This document shows positions 5,306 to 36,582 of a stretch of 37,082 bases of DNA, piece by piece (the stretch's first letter is position 1; every line of letters begins with the position of its first letter). The notes under the pieces were generated by a model. That model searched no databases. It saw nothing but the letters and a program-made list of their open reading frames with translations, and was not told the origin of the DNA. The stretch lies in IMG/VR virus record IMGVR_UViG_3300037587_000290, positions 1 through 37,082 of that record. One strand, written 5' to 3'. The translations under genes were made by a program, and so were the position numbers. The stretch comes from a virus.

Positions 5306-6289
5306 CTAGTATCGAATGGCTGCGTTGCTAATCTTGCCAGCCGCCAGTGCCTTAACGGCCAAAACAGCGCTATCTGTACTCATGCCGCAAGAAATAAAAT
5401 CCTTCATAGCTTGGCGGTTAATGGCACCACGATGGTTTTCGTCTGCTTCGCGAGCTGCTTGCTCTCGCTTTTGTTGGTCGGCTATATTTTGTTGGCGTTG
5501 AGCTTCGGCTACTTGGGCGTTTTTAGTGGCAATTAACTGATCGTTATAAGCGTAAGCCTCGCTAATGTATCCAATCCACTCGTCCAGCTCTTGACGTTTG
5601 CGCGCTTCTTCTGCGGCTGTCGCTGCCTGTCTATCAAAATCAATTTTGGCGTTGATTCCGTAAGCCTCAGTGATATAGGTTAGCCATTCGGCATCCTTGG
5701 TGGCTTGCTTTGCTTTAGCTTCTCGATGTTCGGCATCAATTAGATCTTGCTTTGCTTGCTGTATTTTTTCAGCGGCTTCGTCTTCGGCTTTTTTTGTTGC
5801 GGCATCTGCTGCGGCTTTAATTTCAGCCTGGCGATCGACTTCCACTTGCTTTGCTCGCAAATCGATTAGCTCGTTATCTCGATAGCCTTCTTCTATGTCT
5901 GCATCAAATTTAATTAAGTACGCTGCAACGTCGATAACTTGTTGCTTACCTGCTTTGTCGATTAATTCCCAGGCTGTTAATGGCTCGCGTATTTCTTCAA
6001 CAAGAGCGTTTAAAAAGTCCTTTGACTTCTTTCGGTTTGCGTCGATAGCCTTTGGGAGGGCCTTATATTCAGCGGCTAACTCTTTACCGTGACTCTCAAG
6101 GAATGTTTTCACCTTGGTTACTTTTGTTACGTTAGCTTTAATAGCATTGCGGCCCTTCAAAGTCGAAACATCAGGGACGTGAGCGGTCGCTTCCACTTTG
6201 ACCTTTTCAAGCGTGTCATCGAGCCGATCGCCCTTAGTAAAGAACGGTACCAGCTCAAGTTTTTCGATTACCAATAGTTCAGTTTTCAT
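5306..6289 (-). CDS. Coiled-coil protein of the recombination operon, 327 aa
   Basis: ATG at 6289 fits AGGTGG five bases upstream better than the ATG at 6298, which abuts it. N-terminal about 120 residues are mixed alpha/beta (LLVIEKLELVPFF), then a long Ala/Lys/Glu/Gln coiled coil from about 125 to 290. Two copies of a W-x-x-YI-T/S-EAY-x-x-N motif (WLTYITEAYGIN and WIGYISEAYAYN) lie about 45 residues apart. The C-terminus (HRGAINRQAMKDFISCGMST ... AGKISNAAIRY) matches a tail common in phage proteins beside RecT and YqaJ genes. A role in recombination or DNA handling is inferred from context. Confidence 0.8.
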   Translation of the reverse strand: MKTELLVIEKLELVPFFTKGDRLDDTLEKVKVEATAHVPDVSTLKGRNAIKANVTKVTKVKTFLESHGKELAAEYKALPKAIDANRKKSKDFLNALVEEIREPLTAWELIDKAGKQQVIDVAAYLIKFDADIEEGYRDNELIDLRAKQVEVDRQAEIKAAADAATKKAEDEAAEKIQQAKQDLIDAEHREAKAKQATKDAEWLTYITEAYGINAKIDFDRQAATAAEEARKRQELDEWIGYISEAYAYNDQLIATKNAQVAEAQRQQNIADQQKREQAAREADENHRGAINRQAMKDFISCGMSTDSAVLAVKALAAGKISNAAIRY

Positions 6290-6334
6290 TTCATCCACCT
6301 GTTAGTTTGTTAGCATTTAATTAAGTTTAAAGTC

Positions 6335-6700
6335 TTATTGTTGTTTTGTATCTACGACCTTAGTCTTACGCTGGTTTTTTCTTGAGCAACATCTACACCT
6401 TGAAGATATACCTATTAACTGGTGCGGATCTATACTAAAGCTCTCCGTGTCGGCAGACTTCCATATCTCGCACTGCGGGCACCGCTTTAGCCTTTCGCCA
6501 CCTTCAAATTTTATGCTTATAACTCGACGTCCCGGGCCGGTATTGTTTTTGTCCCATATCGGGCTATAGAATGGCTTCGGCTCCGGGCCTAGCCTTGATT
6601 TTACTTTTGCCTTGGAAATTGAATTTGTGCCATCGGTTAACTTATGAGACAAATCAACGGGGTTTAGTATGCTATTACATAGCCCGGCTAAACCAACCAT
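6335..6700 (-). CDS. Zinc-ribbon protein of the recombination operon, 121 aa
   Basis: ATG at 6700 overlaps the TAA of the exonuclease gene (TAATG), so translation is coupled. The C-terminal third has two cysteine knuckles, RCPQCEIWKSADTESF and SSRCRCCSRKNQRKT, a treble-clef/zinc-ribbon layout often seen in small phage HNH-like proteins. I see no clear HNH catalytic histidines, so it is probably a nucleic-acid binding protein rather than a nuclease. The tail is strongly basic. Confidence 0.7.
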   Translation of the reverse strand: MVGLAGLCNSILNPVDLSHKLTDGTNSISKAKVKSRLGPEPKPFYSPIWDKNNTGPGRRVISIKFEGGERLKRCPQCEIWKSADTESFSIDPHQLIGISSRCRCCSRKNQRKTKVVDTKQQ

Positions 6701-7380
6701 TACCACTGCATCCCGAATTCTAAGCCAAGGTTTTTAAGCATTTCGTCCATATCTTCGATAAAATCGTTGTAGCCTGATTCGATTTTTTCCATCATTTCTT
6801 CGTCGCGCTCAACAACCACATGATGTAATTTTTTACAATTAACATTGCGGGGATCGAACTTGGCAAAGGCCCAAGAGTGATACCCGGTAACCCACATGGA
6901 AAATTGACATTGAACAACTTCTTCTTTTTTGATTGTGCCAGCGGCGGCAAAGGCAATAAAAACGGCGCTAGACCAAGGTGATTTTAATTCAAGTCCTTTT
7001 TGTTGTCCGGTAATGAGCCCATCGGGACTACAGCCAGCGCGCATTAATTCATCGCGATAGATAAATGCAACATCTTCAACGCTTTCAAACGTGGCGGCAC
7101 TGTAAGCCTCCCTCGCGTCATCTTCGTTGTCTTTGCCCCATTGTAAGGGTTTGGCTTTTATTTCTTCTGGCAGTAGCCCGGTGGCGATGGAGGCGACCAA
7201 TTCATTAAGGTATGTTTGTCGACCTTCGGTTCCTCGCTTCATTAGCAAGTAATAAGCCTTTGAGGCGCTAATACAGCCAGCTCTTGACCGGTGCCAATCC
7301 GGCGAGCCCTGCTCAACCTTTGACAAATCAAATCCCAATGTTTCCGAGTGTAATTCCATTTCTTTTTTAAAGTCTCTCAT
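6700..7380 (-). CDS. YqaJ-type phage exonuclease (PD-(D/E)XK)
   Basis: 226 aa, ATG at 7380 with GAGGCG upstream. Motifs of the lambda exonuclease/YqaJ family are in order: GSPDWHRSRAGCISASK (26-41), LQWGKDNEDDARE (79-91, Glu in the core), GCSPDGLI (117-123, metal-binding Asp120) and GLELKSP (129-135, Glu131-x-Lys133). It digests one strand of double-stranded DNA to produce single strands for RecT annealing. RecT lies one small gene upstream, the normal arrangement. Four-base overlap with the gene at 7377-7583. Confidence 0.92.
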   Translation of the reverse strand: MRDFKKEMELHSETLGFDLSKVEQGSPDWHRSRAGCISASKAYYLLMKRGTEGRQTYLNELVASIATGLLPEEIKAKPLQWGKDNEDDAREAYSAATFESVEDVAFIYRDELMRAGCSPDGLITGQQKGLELKSPWSSAVFIAFAAAGTIKKEEVVQCQFSMWVTGYHSWAFAKFDPRNVNCKKLHHVVVERDEEMMEKIESGYNDFIEDMDEMLKNLGLEFGMQW

Positions 7381-7583
7381 CGTAACGCCTCTATCATATT
7401 TTTAATGTGGACAGCTTCATCTTTGAGTTTATTTTCTGCTCTATTTAAAACTTCGATTAGCACGCTGGTTTTTATGGTCTTTTGGTTTTCACATATTTCA
7501 TCAATTTCAGTTAAGGCATCACATCGGGCTAGCCTGGCGGCGATACCAATTAAACCTCCAATTGGGTTAATTTTATTATTCAT
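7377..7583 (-). CDS. Unknown small helical protein, 68 aa
   Basis: ATG at 7583, GGAG eleven bases upstream; overlaps RecT at the start and the exonuclease at the end by four bases each. Helical with heptads in the C-terminal half (SVLIEVLNRAENKLKDEAVH). Tight coupling between recT and exonuclease genes suggests an accessory role; no family recognised. Confidence 0.7.
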   Translation of the reverse strand: MNNKINPIGGLIGIAARLARCDALTEIDEICENQKTIKTSVLIEVLNRAENKLKDEAVHIKNMIEALR

Positions 7584-8473
7584 GATTTCGCATTCTCCAT
7601 AACTTCGATTACTTTTACCGATTCATCGGCGGTGATGTCTTCAAGCGCTAAAACTTCACGACCTAATTTTTGCGTTAGCCATGGCAAGTATTTATCCTTT
7701 GGCTTATCGGCAAATAAACTAATTAATTTATCACTGTAGTTTTCGGCCGGTGCCGGGGTGATATCTTTTTCGGTTGTCGGATCGAATGCCATATTCATGC
7801 CTTGCTCGCACATTTGGACCATTTCAGAGGCGTTAGGAAGGCGGCGACATAACCGGTGCATTACAGCTTTACAGCCCATGCGATCATACCAATCAACCCA
7901 TGGACCATAGGAACTGGTTTTACTTGCCCCTTTAACCTTGTCAATATCGGCCTTGGTCATTACTTCAATTAATAATTCGCCGTTGGTTAACTTGGCATAA
8001 GCAAAGCACAGTAATAATTCACCCCGGTCACCAAATGTAGGAACATATTTATAATGCTCTCCGTTTTCGTCCATCCAATAACTGAACTCGTCATTTTTAT
8101 AAACTGCCTTGGCCGCCATCGCCGCAACTTGGCCGGACATACGAGCCCGTTTAATAACGCCGTCAATCATTGGCAGGTATTGAGCTTTTTTTGCCCATTG
8201 CTTCGGCTGACCCTTGGGTGCAACGTTAACACTAAACGTTACCAATGCAGCCTCTTTGTTATCTGGTACCAGCCCATCTTTAGCGCACATAGTTAACGCC
8301 ATGATCACCGAGTCTTGATTTGCCTCGCCTAAGTCCTTACTTTGTACCATGGCGATTGATGCGCAACGAACGAATTGATCCATTGTTGTGCCACTTGGCA
8401 GCATTGACTGAATGCCAGCGGCAACCAGAGAGTTATTTAATTGATTTTGAATTGTTGCTAAGTCCATGCTCAT
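7580..8473 (-). CDS. recT: RecT-family single-strand annealing protein
   Basis: 297 aa, near the usual RecT length. Conserved stretches: FVRCASIAMVQS (34-45), DSVIMALTMCAKDGLVPDNK with the GL-P-D signature, then QYLPMIDGVIKRAR, and YGPWVDWYDRMGCKAVMHRL matching the C-terminal core. ATG at 8473 with GGAGG eight bases upstream. It anneals complementary single strands and promotes strand exchange with the YqaJ exonuclease. Such systems make phage genomes mosaic, relevant to the duplicated paralogue genes at 1-925 and 35560-36582. Confidence 0.95.
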   Translation of the reverse strand: MSMDLATIQNQLNNSLVAAGIQSMLPSGTTMDQFVRCASIAMVQSKDLGEANQDSVIMALTMCAKDGLVPDNKEAALVTFSVNVAPKGQPKQWAKKAQYLPMIDGVIKRARMSGQVAAMAAKAVYKNDEFSYWMDENGEHYKYVPTFGDRGELLLCFAYAKLTNGELLIEVMTKADIDKVKGASKTSSYGPWVDWYDRMGCKAVMHRLCRRLPNASEMVQMCEQGMNMAFDPTTEKDITPAPAENYSDKLISLFADKPKDKYLPWLTQKLGREVLALEDITADESVKVIEVMENAKS

Positions 8474-8662
8474 TTAATAATCCTCCGGTTCGTGTTCGGG
8501 CGGCGCTTCAAAGTAATCACAATCTTCATTGTCACAATGTAATTCATCAAGAACCATTGTCATGCCATCGCCGCAATCTGGACAAATTGGATCTTCGGGC
8601 TCGTTCCAAGGGAAATCTGGATTATTCCCCTGGCAGTTATCAGGCAAATTTAAGTCTTTCAT
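8474..8662 (-). CDS. Acidic zinc-ribbon protein, 62 aa
   Basis: ATG at 8662 overlaps the upstream TAA (TAATG); GAGG lies upstream. Two cysteine pairs, CPDCGDG and CDNEDCDYF, form a small zinc ribbon. The rest is rich in Asp, Glu and Pro (NEPEDPICPDC, PPEHEPEDY). Ends directly before the RecT start. The acidic surface suggests a protein partner or DNA mimic rather than simple DNA binding; that is inference. Confidence 0.7.
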   Translation of the reverse strand: MKDLNLPDNCQGNNPDFPWNEPEDPICPDCGDGMTMVLDELHCDNEDCDYFEAPPEHEPEDY

Positions 8663-9015
8663 TATTCATTAACCTCGCTTTCAAGATTTGCCATAACTTC
8701 GGCGACAGTGTGAAGCTTGCTTTCTGTTTCTCTGCAAACCTTTGTTAGCTTAGCTATCAATGATTCAACTTCGTTTTGATAGCGGTGAATATCCGCATCG
8801 CAAGTTGGCTCATCTATTCTTAGGTGAGACAAAATCTCGCCATCATGAGTGATTGGGTCGTGATTGATTTCGACTAAAGAAACCCAAATTAAATTACCGA
8901 AAGATGGGTTTAGCTGAACCGAAACACAAAGGCCGTAAGGTACATTTTTGCTTAATGAGAAGCCAACTAGCTTTTTCATTGCTGTTTTGATTGCCGCGTT
9001 CTTTTTGTTGCTCAT
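8662..9015 (-). CDS. Unknown protein, first gene of the leftward early operon, 117 aa
   Basis: ATG at 9015 chosen with AAGGTGACTAAC upstream; a GTG at 9024 in frame lies inside the ribosome site. The centre is beta-rich (GFSLSKNVPYGLCVSVQLNP, NLIWVSLVEINHDP) and the C-terminus is a long helix (NEVESLIAKLTKVCRETE). No family recognised. It leads the operon that holds RecT and the exonuclease. Confidence 0.7.
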   Translation of the reverse strand: MSNKKNAAIKTAMKKLVGFSLSKNVPYGLCVSVQLNPSFGNLIWVSLVEINHDPITHDGEILSHLRIDEPTCDADIHRYQNEVESLIAKLTKVCRETESKLHTVAEVMANLESEVNE

Positions 9016-9071
9016 GTTAGTCACCTTGATTGTTTTTGTTTAAATGTTTTGACGCCTTAAAGCTTACCACC

Positions 9072-9099
9072 TCAAAACTAATTGTAAACCCTTTTATGT
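9072..9099 (-). promoter_or_regulatory. Candidate leftward early promoter
   Basis: On the minus strand TTTACA is followed after 16 bases by TAAGCT, about 60 bases before the ATG at 9015. The match to sigma-70 consensus is moderate; position between divergent operons supports it. Confidence 0.35.
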
Positions 9100-9106
9100 G
9101 AAATAT

Positions 9107-9135
9107 TTGCAATGCGTGATAATTGGTGTTAAATT
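9107..9135 (+). promoter_or_regulatory. Rightward early promoter, extended -10
   Basis: TTGCAA (9107-9112), 17-base spacer, TAAATT (9130-9135) with TG one base upstream of the -10. It is 31 bases before the HTH gene at 9166 and overlaps the tandem repeat at 9122-9143. Confidence 0.65.
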
Positions 9136-9143
9136 GGCGTTAA
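9122..9143. repeat. Tandem 11-bp repeat, candidate operator
   Basis: ATTGGTGTTAA directly followed by ATTGGCGTTAA, one mismatch, repeat length about one helical turn. It covers the -10 of the rightward promoter, where a repressor bound side by side on one DNA face would block transcription. Confidence 0.6.
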
Positions 9144-9165
9144 CTTAAATAGAAAGGTAACAAAC

Positions 9166-9366
9166 ATGAAATTAGGAAATGAATTAAAGAAAGCAATGGT
9201 AGATAGTGGCATTAATGGCGCTAAACACTTATCAGAGGCGTCTGGCATATCTTATGGTAAGACTATTCGCGCTCTTAATGGTGATAGCAGCTCAAGACTA
9301 GTTGATATCGCTCAGTTGGCGCATACGCTTAATTTGGAAATCAAATTCATTACTAAATCGGAGTAG
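9166..9366 (+). CDS. Small Cro/CI-like HTH regulator, 66 aa
   Basis: ATG at 9166, ribosome site AAAGGTAAC. Compact HTH: NELKKAMVDSGINGAKHLSE, ASGISYGKTIRALNGDSSSR, LVDIAQLAHTLNLEI, typical of XRE-type regulators and close in layout to short plasmid/phage antitoxin-like repressors. It is the first gene after the rightward promoter and the likeliest protein to bind the tandem 11-bp repeat. No CI-size repressor or integrase is seen, so it may time lytic genes rather than maintain lysogeny. Confidence 0.8.
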   Translation: MKLGNELKKAMVDSGINGAKHLSEASGISYGKTIRALNGDSSSRLVDIAQLAHTLNLEIKFITKSE

Positions 9367-9372
9367 CCATCA

Positions 9373-9473
9373 ATGCCATATAAAAACACTTTCGCCGCTG
9401 GTTTTGGTTCTTGTTTGCAGTATTCGCAATTATCGAGGCGTATTCATTCGTTAATATCGAGGCGATGACATGA
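9373..9473 (+). pseudogene. Small membrane-protein gene with apparent one-base frameshift
   Basis: ATG at 9373 with GGAG nine bases upstream. Read straight it gives a 31-aa peptide ending at 9468 (MPYKNTFAAGFGS). One base added to the A5 run at 9382-9386 would instead give MPYKKHFRRWFWFLFAVFAI followed by IEAYSFVNIEAMT, a 33-aa membrane peptide whose TGA (9471-9473) overlaps the ATG of the next gene (ATGA), the usual junction in this genome. Mutation, sequence error or recoding would each explain it. Confidence 0.5.
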
Positions 9474-9724
9474 AGAGGCTATACAAGGTTGGCAACATAG
9501 TTAACGTCAAATCGCCCGGGTACGAATGCAGAGCTAAGCCAATTCAAAGAGTCGGCATGATTTATTACACGATCGAAGGTCGCTTTTGCCAGGAAAGCGA
9601 TGTTACGTTAACTCATGAAGTTTGGGAGCCGGGCATGAACGTAACCGTAAAATCTGACCATGTTGCTGCCGGCCCCCTTTCGCTAGAAGCAAACTACTCA
9701 ATTTTAAAAATGATGGAGAACTAA
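9470..9724 (+). CDS. Unknown small protein, 84 aa
   Basis: ATG at 9470, GAGGCGATGAC upstream. Mostly short beta segments: KVGNIVNVKSPGYEC, RVGMIYYTIEGRFCQESDV, GMNVTVKSDHVAAG, like a small SH3/KOW-type barrel, ending in a helix (LEANYSILKMMEN). No family assigned. Part of the rightward early operon. Confidence 0.65.
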   Translation: MKRLYKVGNIVNVKSPGYECRAKPIQRVGMIYYTIEGRFCQESDVTLTHEVWEPGMNVTVKSDHVAAGPLSLEANYSILKMMEN

Positions 9725-9725
9725 C

Positions 9726-9935
9726 ATGTCAGATTTCGCAATGAACTTAACCAAGAACAAGAAGTCTCGAATCAGCAAAAAGGAATCTCAAAGCCTGGCT
9801 GATAAATCACTAAAACGCATTCACGAAGCTAACAAGTCGATCAAAACAAAGATTGGCTGTGATATGCATAAGCGCAGAGTTAGAGCTGAAAATGCAGCTT
9901 TGTTGCGCGATGAACTTAGGGAGGTTTGGGAATAA
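9726..9935 (+). CDS. Unknown basic helical protein, 69 aa
   Basis: ATG at 9726, GGAGAACTAAC upstream. Very rich in Lys/Arg/Ser (LTKNKKSRISKKESQSLADK, DMHKRRVRAENAALLRDEL); likely alpha-helical and possibly nucleic-acid binding. No family recognised. Confidence 0.6.
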   Translation: MSDFAMNLTKNKKSRISKKESQSLADKSLKRIHEANKSIKTKIGCDMHKRRVRAENAALLRDELREVWE

Positions 9936-9938
9936 ATC

Positions 9939-10058
9939 ATGCCCAAACCTAAGCGCAAGCACACATTCGGATATTACAATATAGTCTTTGAGCGTTGTGG
10001 TGAGAAAAGCACAGCACGTTCAATGACCACCCCTATGCGAATGAATAAAAGGAAATAA
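9939..10058 (+). CDS. Very small basic protein, 39 aa
   Basis: ATG at 9939, weak ribosome site (GGGAATAAATC). Encodes MPKPKRKHTFGYYNIVFERC through TTPMRMNKRK. Its 3' end contains the ribosome site (AAAAGGAAATAATA) of the next gene. Accepted on position and composition only. Confidence 0.4.
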   Translation: MPKPKRKHTFGYYNIVFERCGEKSTARSMTTPMRMNKRK

Positions 10059-10060
10059 TA

Positions 10061-10342
10061 ATGGATTGGATAAGCGTTTTAGAAAAAATGCCAGAAAAGA
10101 ACGAAGATAACGACGGGAAGTATTATTACACATTTTCATACGGAGTGGTCAGGGATGACGAGTGGTTTTCTACATACCCAAGAGAAAGTGATGGATGGGG
10201 AAACAAGTGCCAAGGAGGATGCTTTTATCAGCCGAACAGTAGCCCAGAATATGGTGGGGAGTATAAAGCTGATGGCGTGACTCACTGGATGGAAATGCCG
10301 CCACAGAAACTACCAGAACCACCAGTCACCACTAAACTATGA
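10061..10342 (+). CDS. DUF551-family phage protein, 93 aa
   Basis: Starts MDWISVLEKMPEKNED and ends GVTHWMEMPPQKLPEPP, the two hallmark ends of DUF551 (WISVxxxLP at the start; VTHWMPLPxxP at the end). The middle holds a CQGGCFYQP stretch. DUF551 proteins are common in the early regions of phages; their biochemical role is not known. Confidence 0.85.
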   Translation: MDWISVLEKMPEKNEDNDGKYYYTFSYGVVRDDEWFSTYPRESDGWGNKCQGGCFYQPNSSPEYGGEYKADGVTHWMEMPPQKLPEPPVTTKL

Positions 10343-10358
10343 CCGATAAAGGGGAAGA

Positions 10359-10496
10359 ATGAATAATTTAGTATATTGCTATCGATGCACCAGCTATAAG
10401 GATGCTTACTTATTCGAGCCTAACCAGCCGTACCATTGCAGGTGGTGCAAGAACTGTAAATCAACTCCAACAGGCCAGATGCCTAAAGGGCTATAA
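10359..10496 (+). CDS. Small zinc-ribbon protein, 45 aa
   Basis: ATG at 10359 with GGGGA three bases upstream. YCYRCTSYKDAYLFEP and YHCRWCKNCKSTPTG give C-x2-C then C-x2-C-x2-C, a likely zinc site. Last gene before the strong terminator at 10511-10531. Unknown function. Confidence 0.6.
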   Translation: MNNLVYCYRCTSYKDAYLFEPNQPYHCRWCKNCKSTPTGQMPKGL

Positions 10497-10510
10497 CCAC
10501 CCAACCAATT

Positions 10511-10531
10511 GCCCGCTCGTCGGGCTTTTTT
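10511..10531 (+). terminator. Rho-independent terminator
   Basis: GCCCG, loop CTCGT, CGGGC, then six T. Ends the first rightward early unit (9166-10496). Confidence 0.85.
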
Positions 10532-10557
10532 ATGACCGAAATAAATCAATTGAAGTG

Positions 10558-10585
10558 TTGCTATATGACTACAATTAGCTATAAT
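10558..10585 (+). promoter_or_regulatory. Sigma-70-like promoter
   Basis: TTGCTA (10558-10563), 16-base spacer, perfect TATAAT (10580-10585), 29 bases before the RHH gene. Directly follows the terminator, so it starts a new unit. Confidence 0.65.
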
Positions 10586-10613
10586 ACAAATACACATCAA
10601 GTAAGGAGTCATC

Positions 10614-10760
10614 ATGAAGGTTCAGAAAGCAAGTAAGCCAGCAAAGAAAGTAACATCAATCCGCCTTAACATTAAATTAGTTGAAAGGCTAACCAAGCTA
10701 GCCGAAAAGGACGGGCGCAGCTTTAATAATTTCGTAGAGCGATTTTTAGAGCGAGCATAA
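10614..10760 (+). CDS. Arc-like ribbon-helix-helix protein, 48 aa
   Basis: ATG at 10614 with AAGGAG five bases upstream. VTSIRLNIKLVERLTKLAEK then DGRSFNNFVERFLERA: a beta strand with alternating residues for the DNA groove followed by two helices, as in Arc, CopG and Mnt. It should bind DNA as a dimer and may repress its own promoter at 10558-10585. P22 uses Arc and Mnt in its immunity region, but no ant gene is recognised here. Confidence 0.85.
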   Translation: MKVQKASKPAKKVTSIRLNIKLVERLTKLAEKDGRSFNNFVERFLERA

Positions 10761-10763
10761 AAA

Positions 10764-10783
10764 GCCCCTGCTCGAACAGGGGC
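10764..10783 (-). terminator. Hairpin, terminator in the minus direction
   Basis: GCCCCTG, loop CTCGAA, CAGGGGC. An A-run precedes it on the plus strand, so only the minus strand has the T-run of an intrinsic terminator. For rightward RNA it would be a plain 3' hairpin after the RHH stop. Confidence 0.6.
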
Positions 10784-10811
10784 AAACTAAAAGCAACAAG
10801 GTGATTATATC

Positions 10812-11366
10812 ATGGAAATACCAAAGTTTTTAATTGAAATGTCTGAGCAGATGAATACTCAAGACAACCGAATCACAGCAGACCCGATATGGCAAGTTCG
10901 ATGTAAAAGAACAAGAGTTACCGACAGCGGATACAGCGACAGGTTTGAAATAATAGATAACGATGAAGGATCTCGCGTAGCGTGCAGCGAGTTTGGCGGT
11001 GAAATAAACGAGCAAATAGTTAGCTATCTAGACTGTGACGCTAACGACTTACCCGTAATATTTGAGTCATGGGTAGATAGTGATAGTGGCAATGAAGAAA
11101 TGACCGGCGAAGAAAAGATAGAGTATTTCATTGAAAGTTTCGACTGCCACTGGGACTCAATCGATGGGTTTTCCTTGATATGGGTTGAGGAATATGAAGA
11201 TATCGTAAAAAGCGCCTTTTTAACTGAGTCTGATGCCAACTGGTTTATCAACCGAAAGCAGCACGACTACCCGAAACTATACACTTACGTGGCATCCATG
11301 TATCTATGCCCTCAAATGATCGAGCTTCGGGCATGGATTATGTCGTTAACCAAGGGGTCAAATTAA
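10812..11366 (+). CDS. Unknown conserved-looking phage protein, 184 aa
   Basis: ATG at 10812, AAGGTG upstream. N-terminal half is mixed and acidic (RFEIIDNDEGSRVACSEFGG, ESWVDSDSGNEEMTGEEK). The C-terminus, FLTESDANWFINRKQHDYPK then LYTYVASMYLCPQM, resembles a tail found in several unannotated gammaproteobacterial phage proteins. Its TAA overlaps the ATG of the replication gene (TAATG), so they are co-translated. No function known. Confidence 0.8.
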   Translation: MEIPKFLIEMSEQMNTQDNRITADPIWQVRCKRTRVTDSGYSDRFEIIDNDEGSRVACSEFGGEINEQIVSYLDCDANDLPVIFESWVDSDSGNEEMTGEEKIEYFIESFDCHWDSIDGFSLIWVEEYEDIVKSAFLTESDANWFINRKQHDYPKLYTYVASMYLCPQMIELRAWIMSLTKGSN

Positions 11367-12100
11367 TGTCAGCTAAGTGGACCTTTTGGGCATGGGAGCA
11401 ACCAATAAAAACAGCTCCTAAAAAACTGGCATTACTTCAATTGGCAAATAATGCAGATGATGACGGTAAGAGCTGGTACTCAATCGGTAAGATGGCTATC
11501 GCTTGCGGCGTGTCAGATCGGACTTTTCAACGCCAAATACAGGCATTAGAGAGCGATGGCTTACTAGTTGTTGATCGTCGAAGTAATCGCCCTTCAGTTT
11601 ACGTTTTGAAAGATGAAGTATGCATTAAATTAACTGGGGTGACAGACTGCCGGGGTGACACCGTGACAGGGCGGGGTGACAGACTGACGGAGCAGGGTGA
11701 CAGGGAGTCACCTCTAGGGGTGACAGAGAGTCACTCGATCTTAACAACTGATCCTGTCATTGATCCTGTCATTAATCCTAACACCCGTTTTTGTGAGTTT
11801 TGGGATCTTTACGCCAAAAAAGTTGATTCAAAAAAATGTGAAGCCAAGTTTAAAAAGCTAACCAAGGCTCAAGTTGATCTAATATTCGAAAAGCTACCAG
11901 CTTACATTAAATCAAAACCTGACAAGCAGTATCGTAAAAACCCGATCACTTGGCTTAACGGTGAGTGCTGGAATGATGAAATTCAATTATCAACTGGCGC
12001 TGGCCGAGACATTAACGAAATCGGCACTGATTTCTCGCAACCAGCAGGCTTTAAAAAAATGAAGTTTAACGAGATAGGGGAGATGATTGGCTATGAGTGA
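11366..12100 (+). CDS. Replication protein with winged HTH (lambda O-like role), 244 aa
   Basis: ATG at 11366 preferred (GGGG upstream and TAATG overlap) over in-frame upstream codons. MSAKWTFWAWEQPIKTAPKK leads into a winged helix: LALLQLANNADDDGKSWYSI, GKMAIACGVSDRTFQRQIQA, LESDGLLVVDRRSNRPSVY, typical of phage replication initiators and DnaT/GntR-like proteins. Residues about 90-140 are a Gly/Asp/Thr-rich linker encoded by iteron-like DNA repeats, and the C-terminal domain (FWDLYAKKVDSKKCEAKFKK) is of the type that contacts a helicase loader. The loader gene follows directly. Confidence 0.85.
   Translation: MSAKWTFWAWEQPIKTAPKKLALLQLANNADDDGKSWYSIGKMAIACGVSDRTFQRQIQALESDGLLVVDRRSNRPSVYVLKDEVCIKLTGVTDCRGDTVTGRGDRLTEQGDRESPLGVTESHSILTTDPVIDPVINPNTRFCEFWDLYAKKVDSKKCEAKFKKLTKAQVDLIFEKLPAYIKSKPDKQYRKNPITWLNGECWNDEIQLSTGAGRDINEIGTDFSQPAGFKKMKFNEIGEMIGYE
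11636..11773 (+). repeat. Iteron-like repeats inside the replication gene, candidate origin
   Basis: Five copies of (G/A)GGGTGACA begin at 11636, 11652, 11673, 11694 and 11717, spaced 16, 21, 21 and 23 bases, with a GTGACA at 11663 and inverted GTCACC/GTCACT at 11707 and 11729. A perfect 12-bp tandem GATCCTGTCATT follows at 11750-11773, containing the reverse TGTCA. Lambda and relatives carry ori as iterons within gene O, so this is a likely origin. Confidence 0.7.
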
Positions 12101-12827
12101 TAAATCAACTTACAGGCGGTTGCTGTCACAATCAACCAAGGAAAAGCCCAAGTATAGCTATCAGGATTTGCTAGCGCTACGGCAGCAGGGCGAACGCGAC
12201 ACAACCCAAGCATTCGTACATCAACACGAAGAACACGCCAGCAAATCGATTATAGGGCGCTCTGGTATTCTACCAATGCATCAGCATTGCTCATTAGAAA
12301 ACTATGTTGTTACTTGCCAAGGTCAGCAGGATGCTTTGAATTACGTTAGCTGGTTTATTAATAACTTTCATTTAAACAACGGAAGGAGTTTTATTTTTGG
12401 CGGCACCACCGGAACAGGCAAAAATCATTTGTCAGCGGCAATATGCAACGCGCTAATGGAGCAAGGCAAGCGATGCTTAGTGATTACAGTGTCAGAACTG
12501 ATGATGCGGCTGAATAGTTGCTACGGTGACAACGCCAAAATGACGGAGGAACAATTTTTCGACGGCATGGTTAAATTAGATTTGTTGGTCATTGATGAGG
12601 TTGGCTTGGGCAGAACATCAAACAACGCATCAAACAACGAAAAGCTCGCGATCAATCAAATTGTCGACAAGCGCTTATGCCATTTAAAACCAACTGGAAT
12701 ATTAACCAATCTCGGCCAAGAAGAAATAAATGTTCAATTAGGGATTCGCATCATGGATCGTATGAGAAACGACGGTGGGCAGTGGGTTCAATTTAAATGG
12801 CCTAGCCACAGAAATCAGGGTAAATAA
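12093..12827 (+). CDS. DnaC-like helicase loader ATPase, 244 aa
   Basis: ATG at 12093 sits in the last codons of the initiator gene; GGGGAG lies ten bases upstream. Walker A GGTTGTGKNH (103-112), Walker B LLVIDE (164-169), and a sensor-type segment GILTNLGQEEINVQ with RIMDRM resemble DnaC/IstB AAA+ proteins. Polar N-terminal extension of about 60 residues. It should load the host DnaB helicase at the origin recognised by the upstream initiator, as lambda P does with an unrelated fold. Confidence 0.9.
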   Translation: MSDKSTYRRLLSQSTKEKPKYSYQDLLALRQQGERDTTQAFVHQHEEHASKSIIGRSGILPMHQHCSLENYVVTCQGQQDALNYVSWFINNFHLNNGRSFIFGGTTGTGKNHLSAAICNALMEQGKRCLVITVSELMMRLNSCYGDNAKMTEEQFFDGMVKLDLLVIDEVGLGRTSNNASNNEKLAINQIVDKRLCHLKPTGILTNLGQEEINVQLGIRIMDRMRNDGGQWVQFKWPSHRNQGK

Positions 12828-13116: not shown

Positions 13117-13434
13117 ATGAAACTAATTAGACCAATCATGTATTTTTGCCGCCGTGGTGTTAATGATATTCACTGGATAATTAAGAAGATGCGGGTCATT
13201 CCCGAAGATAGGCGGCAGGAAGTGACTAACCAGTATGAAAAGTTACTCAAGTTTAACGATGGGTATCCGGGGCGCGATGCGGCTAATAAATACCTTCAAT
13301 CAGTTGCCGAGGAGTATCGGCCCGAGCGACCGGAAAGGGTTATTAAGATGAAGGCTAAGTCGTCGATAGCCAGCAAGAAGCCTGAGCAAAAATATAACTC
13401 CAAAGATGGTCTTTGGAAAAGGGAAATTAACTAA
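13117..13434 (+). CDS. Unknown protein of the replication region, 105 aa
   Basis: ATG at 13117, GAGG seven bases upstream; longer in-frame start at 13081 lies inside the previous gene. MKLIRPIMYFCRRGVNDIHW, then VIPEDRRQEVTNQYEKL and DGYPGRDAANKYL suggest a helical fold; the C-terminus is lysine-rich. No family assigned. Confidence 0.65.
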   Translation: MKLIRPIMYFCRRGVNDIHWIIKKMRVIPEDRRQEVTNQYEKLLKFNDGYPGRDAANKYLQSVAEEYRPERPERVIKMKAKSSIASKKPEQKYNSKDGLWKREIN

Positions 13435-13876: not shown

Positions 13877-14205
13877 GTGATATTAAAATGAGCGATGTGT
13901 TTAACCAGTTAGCAATAGTTGGCGGGAGAGAGATTGATAGTTGGGAATTGCAAGATATTAACGGAGGAATGTACGCTCTATTTTACAACCACCAAGCGTG
14001 CATAAGTTCAGCAAAAGCCATCAACGCATACGACGCCAATCAAGAGCGGATTAAGGCGCTTGAAGCGATTGCATTCAAGTTGCAGGAATTCATAGTTGAA
14101 ACGTACAATCAATACAATACAGACCGAAACTTAGGGATTAAAATTTCGCTAAGAGGCGGCGCGCTAATTACTGAGTCAGAAGCGATATTGGAGAAAACGA
14201 AATGA
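13873..14205 (+). CDS. Unknown protein, 110 aa
   Basis: ATG at 13873 overlaps the upstream TGA; GGAGCGAAACGAA precedes it. MSDIKMSDVFNQLAIVGGRE, a short beta region (WELQDINGGMYALFYNH), then a helix (QERIKALEAIAFKLQEFIVE). Resembles small Ead/Ea22-like phage proteins in layout only. Confidence 0.6.
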   Translation: MSDIKMSDVFNQLAIVGGREIDSWELQDINGGMYALFYNHQACISSAKAINAYDANQERIKALEAIAFKLQEFIVETYNQYNTDRNLGIKISLRGGALITESEAILEKTK

Positions 14206-14687
14206 TGGAAGAATACGAATCTAGCGACGGGATTGCAGCAAGGGAGTTTAAACGTCTTAGGAATGTCATTAGAACTCAATCAGCTGAAATCTCAGAGCTA
14301 AAATCCGAGCTAGAACAGCACGACGATCAGATAACCAGTATCGAAATTGTTAATCAGGATTTGCTGGCGGTGGCTGGTGCGAGAATTAACAAGCTGGTCG
14401 ATGAGAATAACGAGCTTAAGGCGCAAATATTATCAATAAAACGTCTCGCTGATGGCCTGATGGGTTCAAATTCAGGGATTGATTACAGCGGAAAGATGGA
14501 CGGACTATTAGATGCTATTGATAAGGTTCCGCCGCAATGCCTAGCAAGCGTTAAGGCTGATGCTGTTAAAGACTTCATGCAAAACATTCAGTATTGCGAG
14601 GAGGACGAGCTAATCAACCAGGAGGGTATTGACGAAAGCTTTGATTTTTGGAATGAATCACGAAACAAACTACAGGAGCAAAAATAA
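14202..14687 (+). CDS. Coiled-coil phage protein, 161 aa
   Basis: ATG at 14202 overlaps the TGA before it; GGAGAAAACGAA upstream, nearly the same junction as at 13859-13875. Residues 15-85 form a heptad coiled coil (IRTQSAEISELKSELEQHDD, KLVDENNELKAQIL). The C-terminus SVKADAVKDFMQNI is like the tail of Ead/Ea22-type proteins of lambdoid phages. Function unknown. Confidence 0.65.
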   Translation: MMEEYESSDGIAAREFKRLRNVIRTQSAEISELKSELEQHDDQITSIEIVNQDLLAVAGARINKLVDENNELKAQILSIKRLADGLMGSNSGIDYSGKMDGLLDAIDKVPPQCLASVKADAVKDFMQNIQYCEEDELINQEGIDESFDFWNESRNKLQEQK

Positions 14688-14688
14688 A

Positions 14689-15567
14689 ATGAAATACCCA
14701 ACAGCTAATGAAGTTGTATTTGAGAACTCATATTTTAAAATCCTTTGTTTTAAACCTAATGTTGAAGGCGAAACAAGCACTGTATTGCTAGGGGCCATCG
14801 CTGGCCACACTAGTCAGTTTTCAGTTGACTACAAAAAAGATCAAAGCCTGGCGCAATGTGCCGTTGAAAATACTCTCGGTGGTGTTTATTCCATCTGCAT
14901 TAAGCCGCCAACCCTAATGAGTCGATGGGTTGTTACTTATGATTCATGGATGAAGTGGGTGGCTGACACTATCGAGTTTATCGACAATGGCCCAGTGCAT
15001 TTAGCTGGCATCTGTCAAGGTGGAGCTCTAGCGGCTAAGGTTGCTACCAAATACCCCGATTTAGTATGTGAGCTTACAGTTGCGGCCGCGCCGATTGACA
15101 CATCGTTTAAGTCGGTAATAACACCAGCCCAAAAGATACCATTTATTGCATACCAAATGGCAGTGGCAAAATTTGGAGGCGTTATGAGCGGCGATGCAAT
15201 GCTAGAAGCTTGGATGAAGCCACACAAAAAACATCATGAGGAGGCAATGAAAGATCCTGATAATGATTATTTCTATCGTGTTTACTTTGAAACACAGGAT
15301 ATCGATCCCATTCCTTATTTGTGGATGATATGGAATGTATTTATTTGCAACTTGCTATTAGCATCGCTCAATGTCAAATGTAAAATAAATACGGTTGTTG
15401 GGCATGAAGATGACATCACTCCGCCAGCGCAAATCAATGCAATACAGTCTGCATGCGAGCAGGTTGTCACTCAATACGGAGTTAATGGTGGTCATAAATA
15501 CGTATTCGGCAGCGTTGAGGCAATGAAAGCTGGCGGCGTGTGGGCTGAAATATTTGAGTCTAGATAA
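14689..15567 (+). CDS. Alpha/beta hydrolase related to PHA synthases/depolymerases, 292 aa
   Basis: ATG at 14689 with AGGAG upstream; the longer frame from 14629 lies in the previous gene. A nucleophile elbow G107-I-C109-Q-G111-G has Cys in place of Ser, as in PhaC (GxCxGG) and intracellular PhaZ. Acid and base candidates: VVGHEDDITPP (Asp241/242) and GGHKYVFGS (His269), matching the DDI and GHxxVF ends of the PHB-depolymerase C-terminal domain. GHTSQFSVDYKKDQSLAQCA near residue 40 fits a PhaC-like segment. Probably acts on a hydroxyacid polymer or thioester. Not a usual phage gene; followed by a hairpin. Confidence 0.75.
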   Translation: MKYPTANEVVFENSYFKILCFKPNVEGETSTVLLGAIAGHTSQFSVDYKKDQSLAQCAVENTLGGVYSICIKPPTLMSRWVVTYDSWMKWVADTIEFIDNGPVHLAGICQGGALAAKVATKYPDLVCELTVAAAPIDTSFKSVITPAQKIPFIAYQMAVAKFGGVMSGDAMLEAWMKPHKKHHEEAMKDPDNDYFYRVYFETQDIDPIPYLWMIWNVFICNLLLASLNVKCKINTVVGHEDDITPPAQINAIQSACEQVVTQYGVNGGHKYVFGSVEAMKAGGVWAEIFESR

Positions 15568-15574
15568 TAAAAAA

Positions 15575-15597
15575 GCCCACCAATTGGCTAGGTGGGC
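15575..15597 (-). terminator. Hairpin, terminator in the minus direction
   Basis: GCCCACC, 9-base loop, GGTGGGC, preceded by A6 on the plus strand. As at 10764-10783, the T-run lies only on the minus strand. Directly after the hydrolase stop. Confidence 0.6.
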
Positions 15598-15634
15598 AAA
15601 GAGCTAACATTGACAAGTGGAGTTTAATATTAAC

Positions 15635-16072
15635 ATGAAAGTTAATTTTGTAAAGCAGCCTGGTGGGGTTATGGTTCCCGCCTCGGACCTTGAGGCGGAA
15701 AAGCTGGTTAGATTTAAAACGGGCGAAATGTACGAGGTTGAAATTAAGCTAACCAGAAATGCCGCGTTTCACCGCAAAGTGTTCGCGTTTTTTAATTTTT
15801 GCTTTGAATTCTGGAAAGGCGACAACGAGTTTCAATGTGAGCAAAAACAATCTGAAGTTTTTCGAGATCACCTAACTGTGCTTGCTGGATTCTATGATTC
15901 ATACTCTGGTATAGATGGCAGGGTTAGGGTTGAAGCCAAATCAATTAGCTATGGTAAAATGTCTCAAGATGAATTCGAGAAGCTATACAGCGCTTTAATT
16001 AATGCGGCGATCATGCATATATTTAAGGACGCAGACCAGACAACAATCGACAAGTTGTATAACTTTTTTTAG
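15635..16072 (+). CDS. DUF1367-family phage protein, 145 aa
   Basis: ATG at 15635 chosen as DUF1367 members begin this way; GTG at 15617 is in frame. NFVKQPGGVMVPASDLEAEK, then KTGEMYEVEIKLTRNAAFHR and KVFAFFNFCFEFWKGD are the family's conserved strings, with AFHRKxFAxxNxxFxYW as signature. Found in NinB/NinG neighbourhoods of lambdoid phages; thought to be linked to DNA handling, precise role unknown. Confidence 0.85.
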   Translation: MKVNFVKQPGGVMVPASDLEAEKLVRFKTGEMYEVEIKLTRNAAFHRKVFAFFNFCFEFWKGDNEFQCEQKQSEVFRDHLTVLAGFYDSYSGIDGRVRVEAKSISYGKMSQDEFEKLYSALINAAIMHIFKDADQTTIDKLYNFF

Positions 16073-16080
16073 GAAAAATA

Positions 16081-16686
16081 ATGGCAAAAAAACGAATGTG
16101 CAAGTATTGTGAAAAATGGACTGATGATTTCATTAAAACAAATGTTGCTGTATTTTGCGATGTTGATTGTGCTTACAAGTTCGCTAGGGCCAAGCAGGAG
16201 AAAGAACAAGCTAGGTTAATCACCAAGCTTAAGCAAGTGGGAGTTAAAGCTGACAAAGTGGCTAAAAAGGCGCATAGGGAAGCCAAGGAGCGAATTAAGC
16301 CCAAATCAAAATGGTTAGCTGAATTGCAGGCTGTTTTTAATAAATATGTTCGGTTACGTGATTTAAAATTTGGCTGCGTTAGTTGTAATAAGCCTAGTGA
16401 TTGGCATGGTCAATTTCATGCCGGACATTATTTTTCGCGTGGGCATAGCTCGTCATTGCGGTTTAATTTGTGGAATTGCCATAAGCAATGCTCTGTTTGC
16501 AATAATCATCTATCGGGCAATATAGGTGAATACACGCCAGGATTAATAAGACGCATAGGCAAGGAGAGGTTTGATTATCTGGTTGCGCACAAAAGCGAGA
16601 TAGCTAGTTATGATGTTGACTGGATTAAGCGAGCAATTAAGATAACCAGAAAAGCAATTAAACGATTGGAACTAAGGGGGTTATAA
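16081..16686 (+). CDS. ninG: NinG (Rap) family recombination protein
   Basis: 201 aa, the typical NinG length. N-terminal cysteines (CKYCEKW, FCDVDCAYKF), a basic helix, then the family block GCVSCNKPSDWHGQFHAGHY, SRGHSSSLRFNLWNCHKQCS and VCNNHLSGNIGEY with Cys/His zinc ligands. Lambda NinG/Rap is a structure-specific endonuclease that cuts branched DNA in recombination, which suits the RecT/YqaJ system in this phage. TAA overlaps a following small start (TAATG). Confidence 0.95.
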   Translation: MAKKRMCKYCEKWTDDFIKTNVAVFCDVDCAYKFARAKQEKEQARLITKLKQVGVKADKVAKKAHREAKERIKPKSKWLAELQAVFNKYVRLRDLKFGCVSCNKPSDWHGQFHAGHYFSRGHSSSLRFNLWNCHKQCSVCNNHLSGNIGEYTPGLIRRIGKERFDYLVAHKSEIASYDVDWIKRAIKITRKAIKRLELRGL

Positions 16687-16801: not shown

Positions 16802-18835
16802 CTAAACAATGGAGTTATCTCTAATTATTGTTATGTTAGCGAAAAGATCCGTACCGTCAGGGTTTACAGTTGTATTGTTAGATATTCCCGTGACCCTACA
16901 CGTTAAATCATTAGCGGCAGTCTCTTGAAATGCTCTTATAATTTCAGTTTGTGTGGCAGATGCAACAAGATTATCTATTACAGATACTTTATATCCTTTT
17001 GGTGCTGTTATCTTGCAAACAGCTTCAGATGAAACCGTAACATACTCAGCTGTAACAGTGAGTCCCAGTGAGGATTTTAACGCTGTAATTGTTGGCGTTG
17101 TTGTAGTAAGGCGTAACAGGAACTTATGCGACTCGTCCCCTCTTGCCATCGAATTTATTGTCAAGCCTAATTGCGCCTCACGTACAGGTGTGAGCTTTTC
17201 AACATCAATGGCCGCGTTAGGAAATATCAGGTCTTTGAATATATTAAACCAAAGAGTATCTCCTTTAGTGTTAGCGTGAATGTTATCAAATCGCCAGTAT
17301 GACGGGTCAATATTTCTAGTAGCAGCAAATAAATCAACGTGAGAGCAGTCATTAGCTAAAGCCATCTCTCGACCCGCAGATGTGTATGCTAATATTCTCG
17401 CGTCAGTGAACGAACTGGTTGCTGGCATAGAAATTAAGACTATTACACTGTCGGGTTTTGCCGTCCTAGCTAGATCAATAAATGACTGAACGCTGGCGTT
17501 GTAACCACTAGCGTCAGGATTTCCAAGGGCGGCATCGTTAGCGCCTACGATATAAAAAATGATGTCAGGTGAGAATGGCGCTACAAGCGTGCTATATTCG
17601 GCAAGTATTTGAGTTGAAGTGTATCCGCCTTTTGATGTGAGCTTTGGGACGCTTCGTGTACTGGGAACTATACCGTAAATAATTATGTTGACGTCACCAG
17701 CTCCAGGGTTTACCACATTATCAATTATTGCTGAATCTCCCGTAAACGGGAGTAGCAAAAACTCATATCCCTTATAGTCGCCCGTAGCTGATAAAGTCGC
17801 TTGCGGGACTCCGTTCAAATCAAATGTTACATTCTCACCTGTTGGCTGGCTCGATATTAAAAGCGCTGGTGAGCCTGTGTATTCGTTTTCAATAGTTAGC
17901 GTTTCACCCGCCGAAAAATTAAAACCAAGCGCCCTTTGATTTATGGCTATATTTTGAACTCCAAATGTAGCAGCTAAAAAAGTGTCGGCGTCAGAATAAT
18001 ATTTGCTGGTTTTGATAGGCTGGAAAAAACCACTTGTAACCCATAAGTCCCTAAAGAGGTGCGCCCAGCTGGACATGCCGAACGGGTTTTCCGTTGCGTA
18101 ATCACCCCCATCAACACCGAATGGTGCGGGATATCCAAACCCATTAAACCCCAAAGAGTCACCTGTAATTACTACCTGCTTAGTATTATCAATTTGAGAT
18201 ATTTCCGCGTCAATTAACTTTGTGTCACTATTAATTAACGTTAAACCGCTGGTATACTCAACAGTCGTTTGAACTCTTCCATCATCGCGCCTCTTCATTG
18301 CTAGCGCTGGAGACTGGCCTCCTGTTAATGCAAATGTGTCATCCAGGTTTGTTGTTACTGTTGATAATAAAACTACCTCCCAGTCTGCCCCGCCACCTTC
18401 GCCTGTCGCTTTCTCTTTTATTTTAAGTACGTCGTCAAGGGTGATTCGAGAGTCAGCGATAGCCGCCGCCTGCGTGTCAGGGTTTAATCTATCAATCCTA
18501 TTATCTAAGTTGCTTTCGTCTGATGGTGCTGGTACATCATCAAATGGCCCCATATAAAATGGAGTATTAGCCGCCGCATCAGCAGCGTTGGCAAAGATGC
18601 CCCATTTATGCTTAAGGTCGATAAATGGAAGTATCTCATTGCCTGAAACCTCAAGTTTACCTTGTGCGTTATAGGTAATCGACGCCTGCGGGCTTGCTCC
18701 GTCCTTGTCTATAGCAATTGACGTGCCTGTTGTGCCGCCAGGAAGAAATGCCTTTAAAACAGCTCCGGAAAAAGGATTACCGTTACTGTCAAATACTGGA
18801 TTTGGCACGTCCGTCATTACTGAAAAGTTAGCCAT
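16802..18835 (-). CDS. Tailspike with P22-type head-binding domain and SGNH esterase
   Basis: 677 aa. Residues about 10-95 (NPVFDSNGNPFSGAVLKAFL, IDLKHKWGIFAN) match P22-tailspike-like head-binding domains. A helical neck follows, then an SGNH hydrolase: block I VITGDSLGF (Ser227), block III VGANDA (Asn433), block V DNIH (Asp517, His520). A beta-rich insert of about 120 residues lies between blocks I and III. The C-terminal 130 residues are beta-rich. It probably deacetylates or de-esterifies host O-antigen or capsule, as other esterase tailspikes do. Last gene of the operon; ATG abuts the previous TAA. Confidence 0.88.
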   Translation of the reverse strand: MANFSVMTDVPNPVFDSNGNPFSGAVLKAFLPGGTTGTSIAIDKDGASPQASITYNAQGKLEVSGNEILPFIDLKHKWGIFANAADAAANTPFYMGPFDDVPAPSDESNLDNRIDRLNPDTQAAAIADSRITLDDVLKIKEKATGEGGGADWEVVLLSTVTTNLDDTFALTGGQSPALAMKRRDDGRVQTTVEYTSGLTLINSDTKLIDAEISQIDNTKQVVITGDSLGFNGFGYPAPFGVDGGDYATENPFGMSSWAHLFRDLWVTSGFFQPIKTSKYYSDADTFLAATFGVQNIAINQRALGFNFSAGETLTIENEYTGSPALLISSQPTGENVTFDLNGVPQATLSATGDYKGYEFLLLPFTGDSAIIDNVVNPGAGDVNIIIYGIVPSTRSVPKLTSKGGYTSTQILAEYSTLVAPFSPDIIFYIVGANDAALGNPDASGYNASVQSFIDLARTAKPDSVIVLISMPATSSFTDARILAYTSAGREMALANDCSHVDLFAATRNIDPSYWRFDNIHANTKGDTLWFNIFKDLIFPNAAIDVEKLTPVREAQLGLTINSMARGDESHKFLLRLTTTTPTITALKSSLGLTVTAEYVTVSSEAVCKITAPKGYKVSVIDNLVASATQTEIIRAFQETAANDLTCRVTGISNNTTVNPDGTDLFANITIIRDNSIV

Positions 18836-35559: not shown

Positions 35560-36582
35560 TTACCCCTTTAATGTGATTGTGAATTTATCGCTAGCTAATA
35601 ACTTGTCAACGTTATATTCCCAAGTGGCATTCCACTCAATGGAGTCCATTAGTGCGGATTTAAGCTTTTCTTCGTCTGTCTGGATTGGTTTAATTCTTTC
35701 CGCTTTGAATCCTGCATAGCGAACAGGGAAAGGATAGTCATCGAACATTGCAAATACAGCAAACTCACCATCTTCATTGTTGTCAAATCCGATACATTCA
35801 CCTTTATACCAGTCGTCCAAACTTCCAGATTTAACCATGCATTCAGCGCCAACCGCCGGCAACTCACCAGCATCAGCCATTGCCTGAGTAAACACAGGCT
35901 TAGGTATCTCGCCATTACAAGGCGCAACAGGACCACCAAGCAAAGCACCAAAAAGGGCATCAATCTCAGAGATGGCAAGCTTTGATCTGTCAGCTTTCGC
36001 TTGCCCTGCTTGGTATTGTTTTAGCATTGCGTCTTTGTTGGGTTTCCATGATTTGATGTGGCCGGTGTTACTGATGTTACCGTTTAATGACCAACCAAAC
36101 GCACAGGCCTTTCTAGTTAACACACCTGCGCCAATCACGTAACAATCAACAACCACGTCATCACCCACTGGCTGAGCTCCGGTGTTTGGGCGGTCTGCGA
36201 ATGATATGACGAAGAATTGTGCATACTCATAATCTTCATTAAGATTTGCAACCTGACCATCAGCTCCATCGATTACAAACGTTAAGTTGAATTTTTCATT
36301 ATATAACACATCACCCACAACCAGCGGCGTAAACCTCTTAACGTATGAGATTGGTATTAATTTATCTGTGTTCATTTCAAAGTCCTCTTTTCGCTCGCCT
36401 ATTGGACGTAACAACTCGATCACACCCTTTGAGGCTAGTAGCCATTCTTTTGTGAACATTGATCTTTTCCATTTGCTGTTTTCACAATCAAGGAATAAAG
36501 GCCGCACTTTCTCACCTACAAAAAAGAACTTATTGCAAATTAAGTGCGTCGCGTCTTTCGTGTTCTCTAATGTAAATGTCAT
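35560..36582 (-). CDS. Phage protein of unknown function, paralogue B, 340 aa
   Basis: ATG at 36582, AAAGGTAACTAAC upstream. Paralogue of the gene at the left edge. Residues 1-69 (MTFTLENTKDATHLICNKFF, GVIELLRPIGERKEDFE) are absent from paralogue A. At residue 70 MNTDKLIPI begins, matching A's start, and AGAGGA lies just before that ATG, so a second start at 36375 is likely. The centre differs from A (QAMADAGELPAVGAECMVKS, WYKGECIGFDNNEDGEFAVF, the latter like SH3-type phage proteins). The C-terminus is identical to A. No known family. Confidence 0.85.
   Translation of the reverse strand: MTFTLENTKDATHLICNKFFFVGEKVRPLFLDCENSKWKRSMFTKEWLLASKGVIELLRPIGERKEDFEMNTDKLIPISYVKRFTPLVVGDVLYNEKFNLTFVIDGADGQVANLNEDYEYAQFFVISFADRPNTGAQPVGDDVVVDCYVIGAGVLTRKACAFGWSLNGNISNTGHIKSWKPNKDAMLKQYQAGQAKADRSKLAISEIDALFGALLGGPVAPCNGEIPKPVFTQAMADAGELPAVGAECMVKSGSLDDWYKGECIGFDNNEDGEFAVFAMFDDYPFPVRYAGFKAERIKPIQTDEEKLKSALMDSIEWNATWEYNVDKLLASDKFTITLKG
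35565..35691. repeat. 127-bp exact direct repeat, copy 2
   Basis: Identical to bases 1-127. Codes for the C-terminus of paralogue B; its end also provides AAAGG of the ribosome site for the gene at 35215-35556. Confidence 0.97.

Follow-up and report, generated by a model that had tools for sequence, protein, structure and literature searches.

A predicted Cys-Asp-His hydrolase of the polyhydroxyalkanoate synthase/depolymerase superfamily in the early operon of a P22-like podovirus

Polyhydroxyalkanoate (PHA) is a major bacterial store of carbon and energy in wastewater, soils and seas. To our knowledge, the handling of PHA by phages in infected cells has hardly been studied. Phage contigs from PHA-producing mixed cultures are reported to carry phaC and six further genes of PHA synthesis, some of them transcribed (PMC12013262). 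In infected Nitrosomonas an unexplained build-up of 3-hydroxybutyrate is reported (PMC13356812). The Cys-Asp-His triad of PHA enzymes is uncommon among alpha/beta hydrolases, the named examples being dienelactone hydrolase, PhaZ and PHA synthase (PMC11878206).

The gene described here comes from a 37-kb virus record (IMG/VR record IMGVR_UViG_3300037587_000290, 37,082 nucleotides), the whole of which is called the window. Judged by sequence, it resembles the phaC of the PHA-producing cultures in being a PHA-metabolism-type gene on phage contigs. Those genes are described as encoding a PHA polymerase, one of them very similar to a bacterial copy, whereas the window hydrolase belongs to a separate branch of the superfamily for which a close cellular copy was not found. 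A reading of the window from its sequence alone had considered an auxiliary role in PHA metabolism unfamiliar in phages; in light of the earlier contigs (PMC12013262) such a role is not wholly new. For a virus-specific branch of the PhaC/PhaZ/DUF3141 superfamily, no report was found in the open-access literature.

The gene in its early operon

The window encodes a P22-type coat protein, a terminase, RecT, an exonuclease, ninG and replication genes, which places the hydrolase gene on a true virus genome rather than in a host flank. Its terminase is close to that of EBPR podovirus 2 and that of Sulfitobacter phage phiGT1. Phages close to it infect marine gammaproteobacteria, which gives only a hint of the host. 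Among the window genes that were scanned, none was recognised as encoding a phasin or another PHA-related protein.

The hydrolase gene is situated in the rightward early operon of this P22-like podovirus, immediately upstream of ninB/ninG (Table 1). The sequence-only reading had proposed that the gene has its own ribosome site and lies between early genes, and both proposals are borne out by the Shine-Dalgarno sequence and by the flanking replication and nin genes. Three observations set the reading frame apart from a chance one: a match to the curated model TIGR01836 (6e-12), a 75% identical full-length copy in a second phage, and a catalytic triad invariant in nine viral proteins. Thalassomonas phage BA3 and Vibrio phage 41E34.2 share the layout of this region and hold a DNA methyltransferase gene in the stretch upstream of ninB, and the hydrolase therefore has the appearance of accessory cargo in the early operon. 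From this position it would be expressed early in infection. Promoter-like sites around the gene are no more frequent than expected by chance. The hairpin directly downstream may mark the boundary of the cargo; its role as a plus-strand terminator is uncertain because the T-run beside it belongs to the minus strand.

Table 1. Position of the hydrolase gene, its predicted catalytic residues and neighbouring features in the window
Feature	Position	Strand	Details
Upstream gene	14202..14687	+	Stop 1 nt before hydrolase ATG
Shine-Dalgarno AGGAG	14674..14678	+	10 nt 5' of hydrolase ATG
Hydrolase ORF	14689..15567	+	292 aa, ATG start, TAA stop
Predicted Cys-Asp-His alpha/beta hydrolase, PHA synthase/PHA depolymerase/DUF3141 superfamily, virus-specific short form	14689..15567	+	
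GICQGG nucleophile elbow, residues 107-112, Cys109	15007..15024	+	Predicted strand 103-108 / helix 110-121
Asp241, predicted catalytic acid	15409..15411	+	After predicted strand 232-238
His269, predicted catalytic base	15493..15495	+	After predicted strand 260-265
Hairpin directly 3' of hydrolase gene	15575..15597	.	-14.2 kcal/mol, z -2.8
O-like replication initiator, early operon	11306..12100	+	phrog_270, 3.3e-24
IstB/DnaC-type ATPase of the early operon, probably a helicase loader	12087..12827	+	PF01695, 1.2e-10
NinB-like recombination protein (DUF1367)	15617..16072	+	
NinG	16081..16686	+	PF05766, 2.6e-47

Superfamily placement and predicted active site

The description of the product as a PhaC/PhaZ-like hydrolase holds at the level of the superfamily, by profile, tree, motif and predicted fold, but the protein is neither PhaC nor PhaZ proper. 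Its best curated model is that of class III PhaC (TIGR01836 in NCBIfam, residues 5-144), at 45.2 bits against a model cut-off of 365 bits, and a clade with class III PhaC was rejected in a topology test of the window protein paired with its closest viral relative (p-AU 0.0017). Class III membership was rejected on both grounds. PhaZ membership was also rejected: TIGR01849 is absent at E-values up to 1, PF06850 (PHB_depo_C) reaches only 0.25 among otherwise weak Abhydrolase matches in Pfam, and the window protein has CQG where PhaZ has CQP. Of the profile comparisons proposed at the outset, that with PhaC therefore gave a significant match and those with PhaZ and PHB_depo_C did not. DUF3141 (PF11339) had no Pfam match in the window protein. 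TIGR01836 matches the other viral members at 1e-22 to 1e-28, with the exception of one (L119, 3e-12), and a profile of the viral family searched against the PDB places four PHA synthase sequences on top (9e-20 to 6e-13), the next match following at 4e-8. An unrelated hydrolase family or a missing triad would have counted against the initial proposal; the best matches are PHA enzymes and the triad residues are present.

Trees and motifs refine this placement. A first tree, with class III PhaC, class I PhaC and PhaZ references drawn from genomes via curated models, put the phage pair on the side of PhaZ and of a bacterial family with the motif GLCQGGW. When the pair was tested alone, a position as sister to all PhaC was not rejected (p-AU 0.26). 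In a tree of 42 proteins the viral, GLCQGGW and PhaZ side is split from PhaC at 100/99. AGH, PID[T], DDI[T], Tyr199 and Gly238 are common to the viral family, PhaZ and the GLCQGGW family and mostly differ in PhaC. Like class III PhaC, the window protein has a GxCxG nucleophile, an Asp and a His within an alpha/beta core that lacks the class I N-terminal domain. Unlike class III PhaC, it is missing the PhaC-specific positions DH[LI] and N[RK]. A PHROGs scan of adjacent genes showed nothing recognisable as a PhaE-like partner. With PhaZ (TIGR01849, PF06850) it shares the Cys nucleophile, Tyr199 and the [AS]GH, PID[TAC] and DDI[TSC] positions, but it falls some 110 residues short of the TIGR01849 model, which has 406 positions. 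Several features of the family around the active site are missing from the window's own branch, having been lost there, namely the Trp after GICQGG, the PP before AGH and the HIG after the catalytic His, and so its substrate may have changed.

An AlphaFold2 model computed from 61 family sequences (window and loci) reached pLDDT 88.8 and pTM 0.89; prediction from the single sequence gave only pLDDT 37. Foldseek returned PHA synthases among its top matches at a TMq of about 0.7 (0.68-0.74), with other hydrolases mostly at 0.5-0.6, and the modelled fold thus fits PHA synthase catalytic domains best (TM 0.70-0.74). The motifs GICQGG, DDITPP and GGHKYVFGS, singled out in the sequence-only reading, lie at residues 107-112, 241-246 and 267-275. 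In order and secondary structure the predicted active site follows the alpha/beta-hydrolase scheme, with a nucleophile elbow, an Asp after strand 7 and a His after strand 8. The acid had been assigned one residue too far along: Asp241, rather than Asp242, aligns with the PhaC catalytic Asp (the D of DH) and is the homologue of the catalytic Asp of PhaC/PhaZ. All 42 family proteins share it; the residue at 242 is variable, being H in most PhaC and N in the viral protein L121. A confident predicted fold with Cys, Asp and His in the right order was thus obtained, with the acid corrected, and a Cys109-Asp241-His269 triad is well supported by model and alignment. Membership of the Cys-Asp-His superfamily (PhaC/PhaZ/DUF3141) is likewise well supported on sequence and modelled structure.

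A viral branch and its bacterial relatives

The closest relative is a full-length protein, 75% identical, on the IMG/VR contig L001, where it also lies near ninB- and ninG-like genes. Between the two genes dN is 0.20 and dS about 2.1 (saturated), and at the DNA level the first 40 codons or so are nearly identical whereas the remainder has diverged. Together these features indicate recombination plus purifying selection. Other early modules are common to the two phages at 83-91% DNA identity (window positions 9714-10063, 13120-13358 and 16242-16363) amid otherwise differing sequence, which indicates mosaic exchange between them.

Scanning IMG/VR with the bacterial family brought eight further viral contigs, to which later scans added none. 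Since the proteins of two of these contigs are identical, the total with the window and L001 comes to ten contigs and nine different viral proteins. The proteins are about 290-320 aa long and lack the N-terminal stretch of the bacterial form, and all nine retain the Cys, the Asp and the His. Terminase, portal or T7-type genes on several of the contigs attest to their viral nature. On L119, which stems from the same metagenome as L001 and whose hydrolase is 43% identical to the window protein, the gene adjoins a portal gene; on L121 it adjoins primase/helicase and DNA polymerase genes, and on L122 exonuclease and helicase genes. L117 (95 kb) and L120 (238 kb) each carry a terminase, and the carriers range from small podovirus-type to jumbo phages. 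In the 42-protein tree all viral copies form one branch with moderate support (86/79), within which the window protein belongs to a seven-member part (100/98). A tblastn search of 50,697 GenBank phages with five viral members found no copy, and the nearest genome-wide GenBank relatives (EBPR podovirus 2 and Sulfitobacter, Vibrio and Thalassomonas phages) accordingly have none that is recognisable. A sample of 369 genomes from the same class as genome G002, which included no positive control, yielded no close cellular copy. Plain capture of a host gene was rejected on the grounds of this search and of the viral branch. The sequences suggest a virus-only branch in about nine unrelated phages, so far undescribed in the open-access literature.

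A scan of 84,980 genomes yielded cellular relatives, mostly in Proteobacteria, that are about 27-32% identical and about 375 aa long, and nearly all have GLCQGGW. The relatives that were tested give strong matches to class III PhaC, PhaZ, PHB_depo_C and DUF3141 (PF11339 at 1e-18 to 1e-23) and remain below the PhaC and PhaZ class cut-offs. The closest cellular kin of the window protein are these GLCQGGW hydrolases, for example Bcep1808_7272, annotated as a PHB de-polymerase domain protein. Identity is 28-32% along almost the full length, with the same triad and cap motifs, but the bacterial form is extended at its N-terminus and longer in the segment that precedes the last strands, and it keeps the GGW, PP and HIG that the window branch has lost. 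At 26 of 80 bacterial loci, MaoC-PTA, acetate kinase, phasin or PhaC is encoded within about 6 kb, a count made up mostly of MaoC-PTA and acetate kinase neighbours and without a background rate. In Polaromonas the gene order is hydrolase, phasin, MaoC-PTA, PhaC, and at L018 and L020 phasin and class I PhaC genes lie close to the GLCQGGW gene. No experimentally characterised member of this closest bacterial family was found. In L104, a member of the bacterial family from the Methanoperedens genome of locus L005, Ser replaces both the Cys nucleophile and the Gly two residues further on (GMSQSG), and the Asp motif is changed to RDVLAP; the sequence makes a change of mechanism possible.

Candidate functions and rival explanations

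Our preferred explanation, held tentatively, is that the protein is a small intracellular thiol acyl-hydrolase of a phage lineage that acts on (R)-3-hydroxyacyl esters or thioesters, or on PHA, early in infection. Hydrolysis of 3-hydroxyacyl esters, rather than polymerisation, is favoured because of the PhaZ-side motifs and the PHA-linked neighbours of the bacterial relatives. In such a mechanism the enzyme would be made early, His269 and Asp241 would activate Cys109, and Cys109 would attack the ester or thioester of an (R)-3-hydroxyacyl compound, with the PHA of host granules (chains or oligomers) or 3-hydroxyacyl-CoA as the likeliest substrates. An acyl-enzyme would form and the acid would be released by hydrolysis, so that the host carbon store could supply acetyl-CoA and reducing power for phage replication. 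A more far-reaching version, to which we give less credence, is that of a dedicated viral family: short Cys hydrolases of a single old lineage, distributed among unrelated tailed phages, would open host PHA granules early in infection as fuel. It is conceivable, at the same level of caution, that this lineage would span P22/lambda-like podoviruses, T7-type phages and large and jumbo phages.

That several phage types carry members of a virus-only enzyme branch whose catalytic residues are intact suggests that viruses may draw on the carbon stores of bacteria or alter them. If so, storage compounds would be added to the pools on which phages draw directly, alongside nucleotides and photosynthesis. 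The branch also poses a concrete question, namely whether the enzyme degrades PHB and whether PHB falls during infection.

An esterase or thioesterase acting on a substrate other than PHA, such as a small ester, a lactone, or an acyl-CoA or acyl-ACP of the host, is a serious though somewhat doubtful competitor; altering membrane lipids, signalling molecules or a toxic compound are examples of purposes it might serve. Weak matches to lactonases and esterases (PcaD models, EstX), the lost active-site-area residues that the rest of the family keeps, and the PHROGs label of its distant relatives, merely esterase/lipase, all point this way. Against this, PHA enzymes are clearly the best match by profile, tree and fold, and the bacterial relatives often stand near PHA-linked genes.

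The thiol acyl-hydrolase that we prefer must also be set against a minimal PHA synthase, which would polymerise 3-hydroxyacyl-CoA or compete with the host synthase and so block or redirect storage. Class III PhaC as the best curated model, the PhaC-like GxCxG lipase box and the best structural fit of the predicted fold to PhaC speak for a synthase. It is nevertheless unlikely in view of the rejected class III clade, the missing DH[LI] and N[RK] positions, the lack of a class I N-terminal domain and the failure to recognise a PhaE-like partner among the adjacent genes scanned.

Improbable, too, is a hydrolase for counter-defence or host takeover. The slot that holds a methyltransferase in BA3 and 41E34.2 would suit such a role, and the L119 hydrolase directly adjoins genes that are methyltransferase-like as judged from their sequence. 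However, the cargo of this stretch is varied, and sequence, fold and bacterial context all point to acyl chemistry. PADLOC gave no match, and a component of anti-phage defence was rejected on that ground. That the gene is a passing host gene or an assembly artefact with no phage role is very improbable: the record is a metagenomic contig, but a constrained, 75% identical protein occurs in a second phage, nine viral contigs besides the window carry the gene (several with terminase, portal or T7-type primase or polymerase), the copies form one viral branch, and no close copy turned up in the 369 genomes sampled from the class of G002.

Several further features of these contigs were noted. Two IMG/VR contigs of putative viral origin, L135 and L136, carry relatives of class I PhaC at 42% and 37% identity. 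L117 encodes a nicotinamide phosphoribosyltransferase (11585-12826; phrog_448, 1e-105) 5 kb from its hydrolase. On L120 an HD phosphohydrolase (phrog_990, within 6058-12682) follows the hydrolase by about 5 kb, and we take it to resemble the SpoT/MESH1 ppGpp hydrolases. The window itself contains an exact 127-b direct repeat (1-127 and 35565-35691), the first copy of which opens the contig, inside two paralogous minus-strand genes (2-925 and 35560-36582); the contig probably broke here, since the repeat length equals a common assembler k-mer. A second acyl-hydrolase of the window phage, a 677-aa protein with a GDSL/SGNH domain (16802-18835, minus strand; PF13472, 2e-13), is by its position probably a tail appendage.
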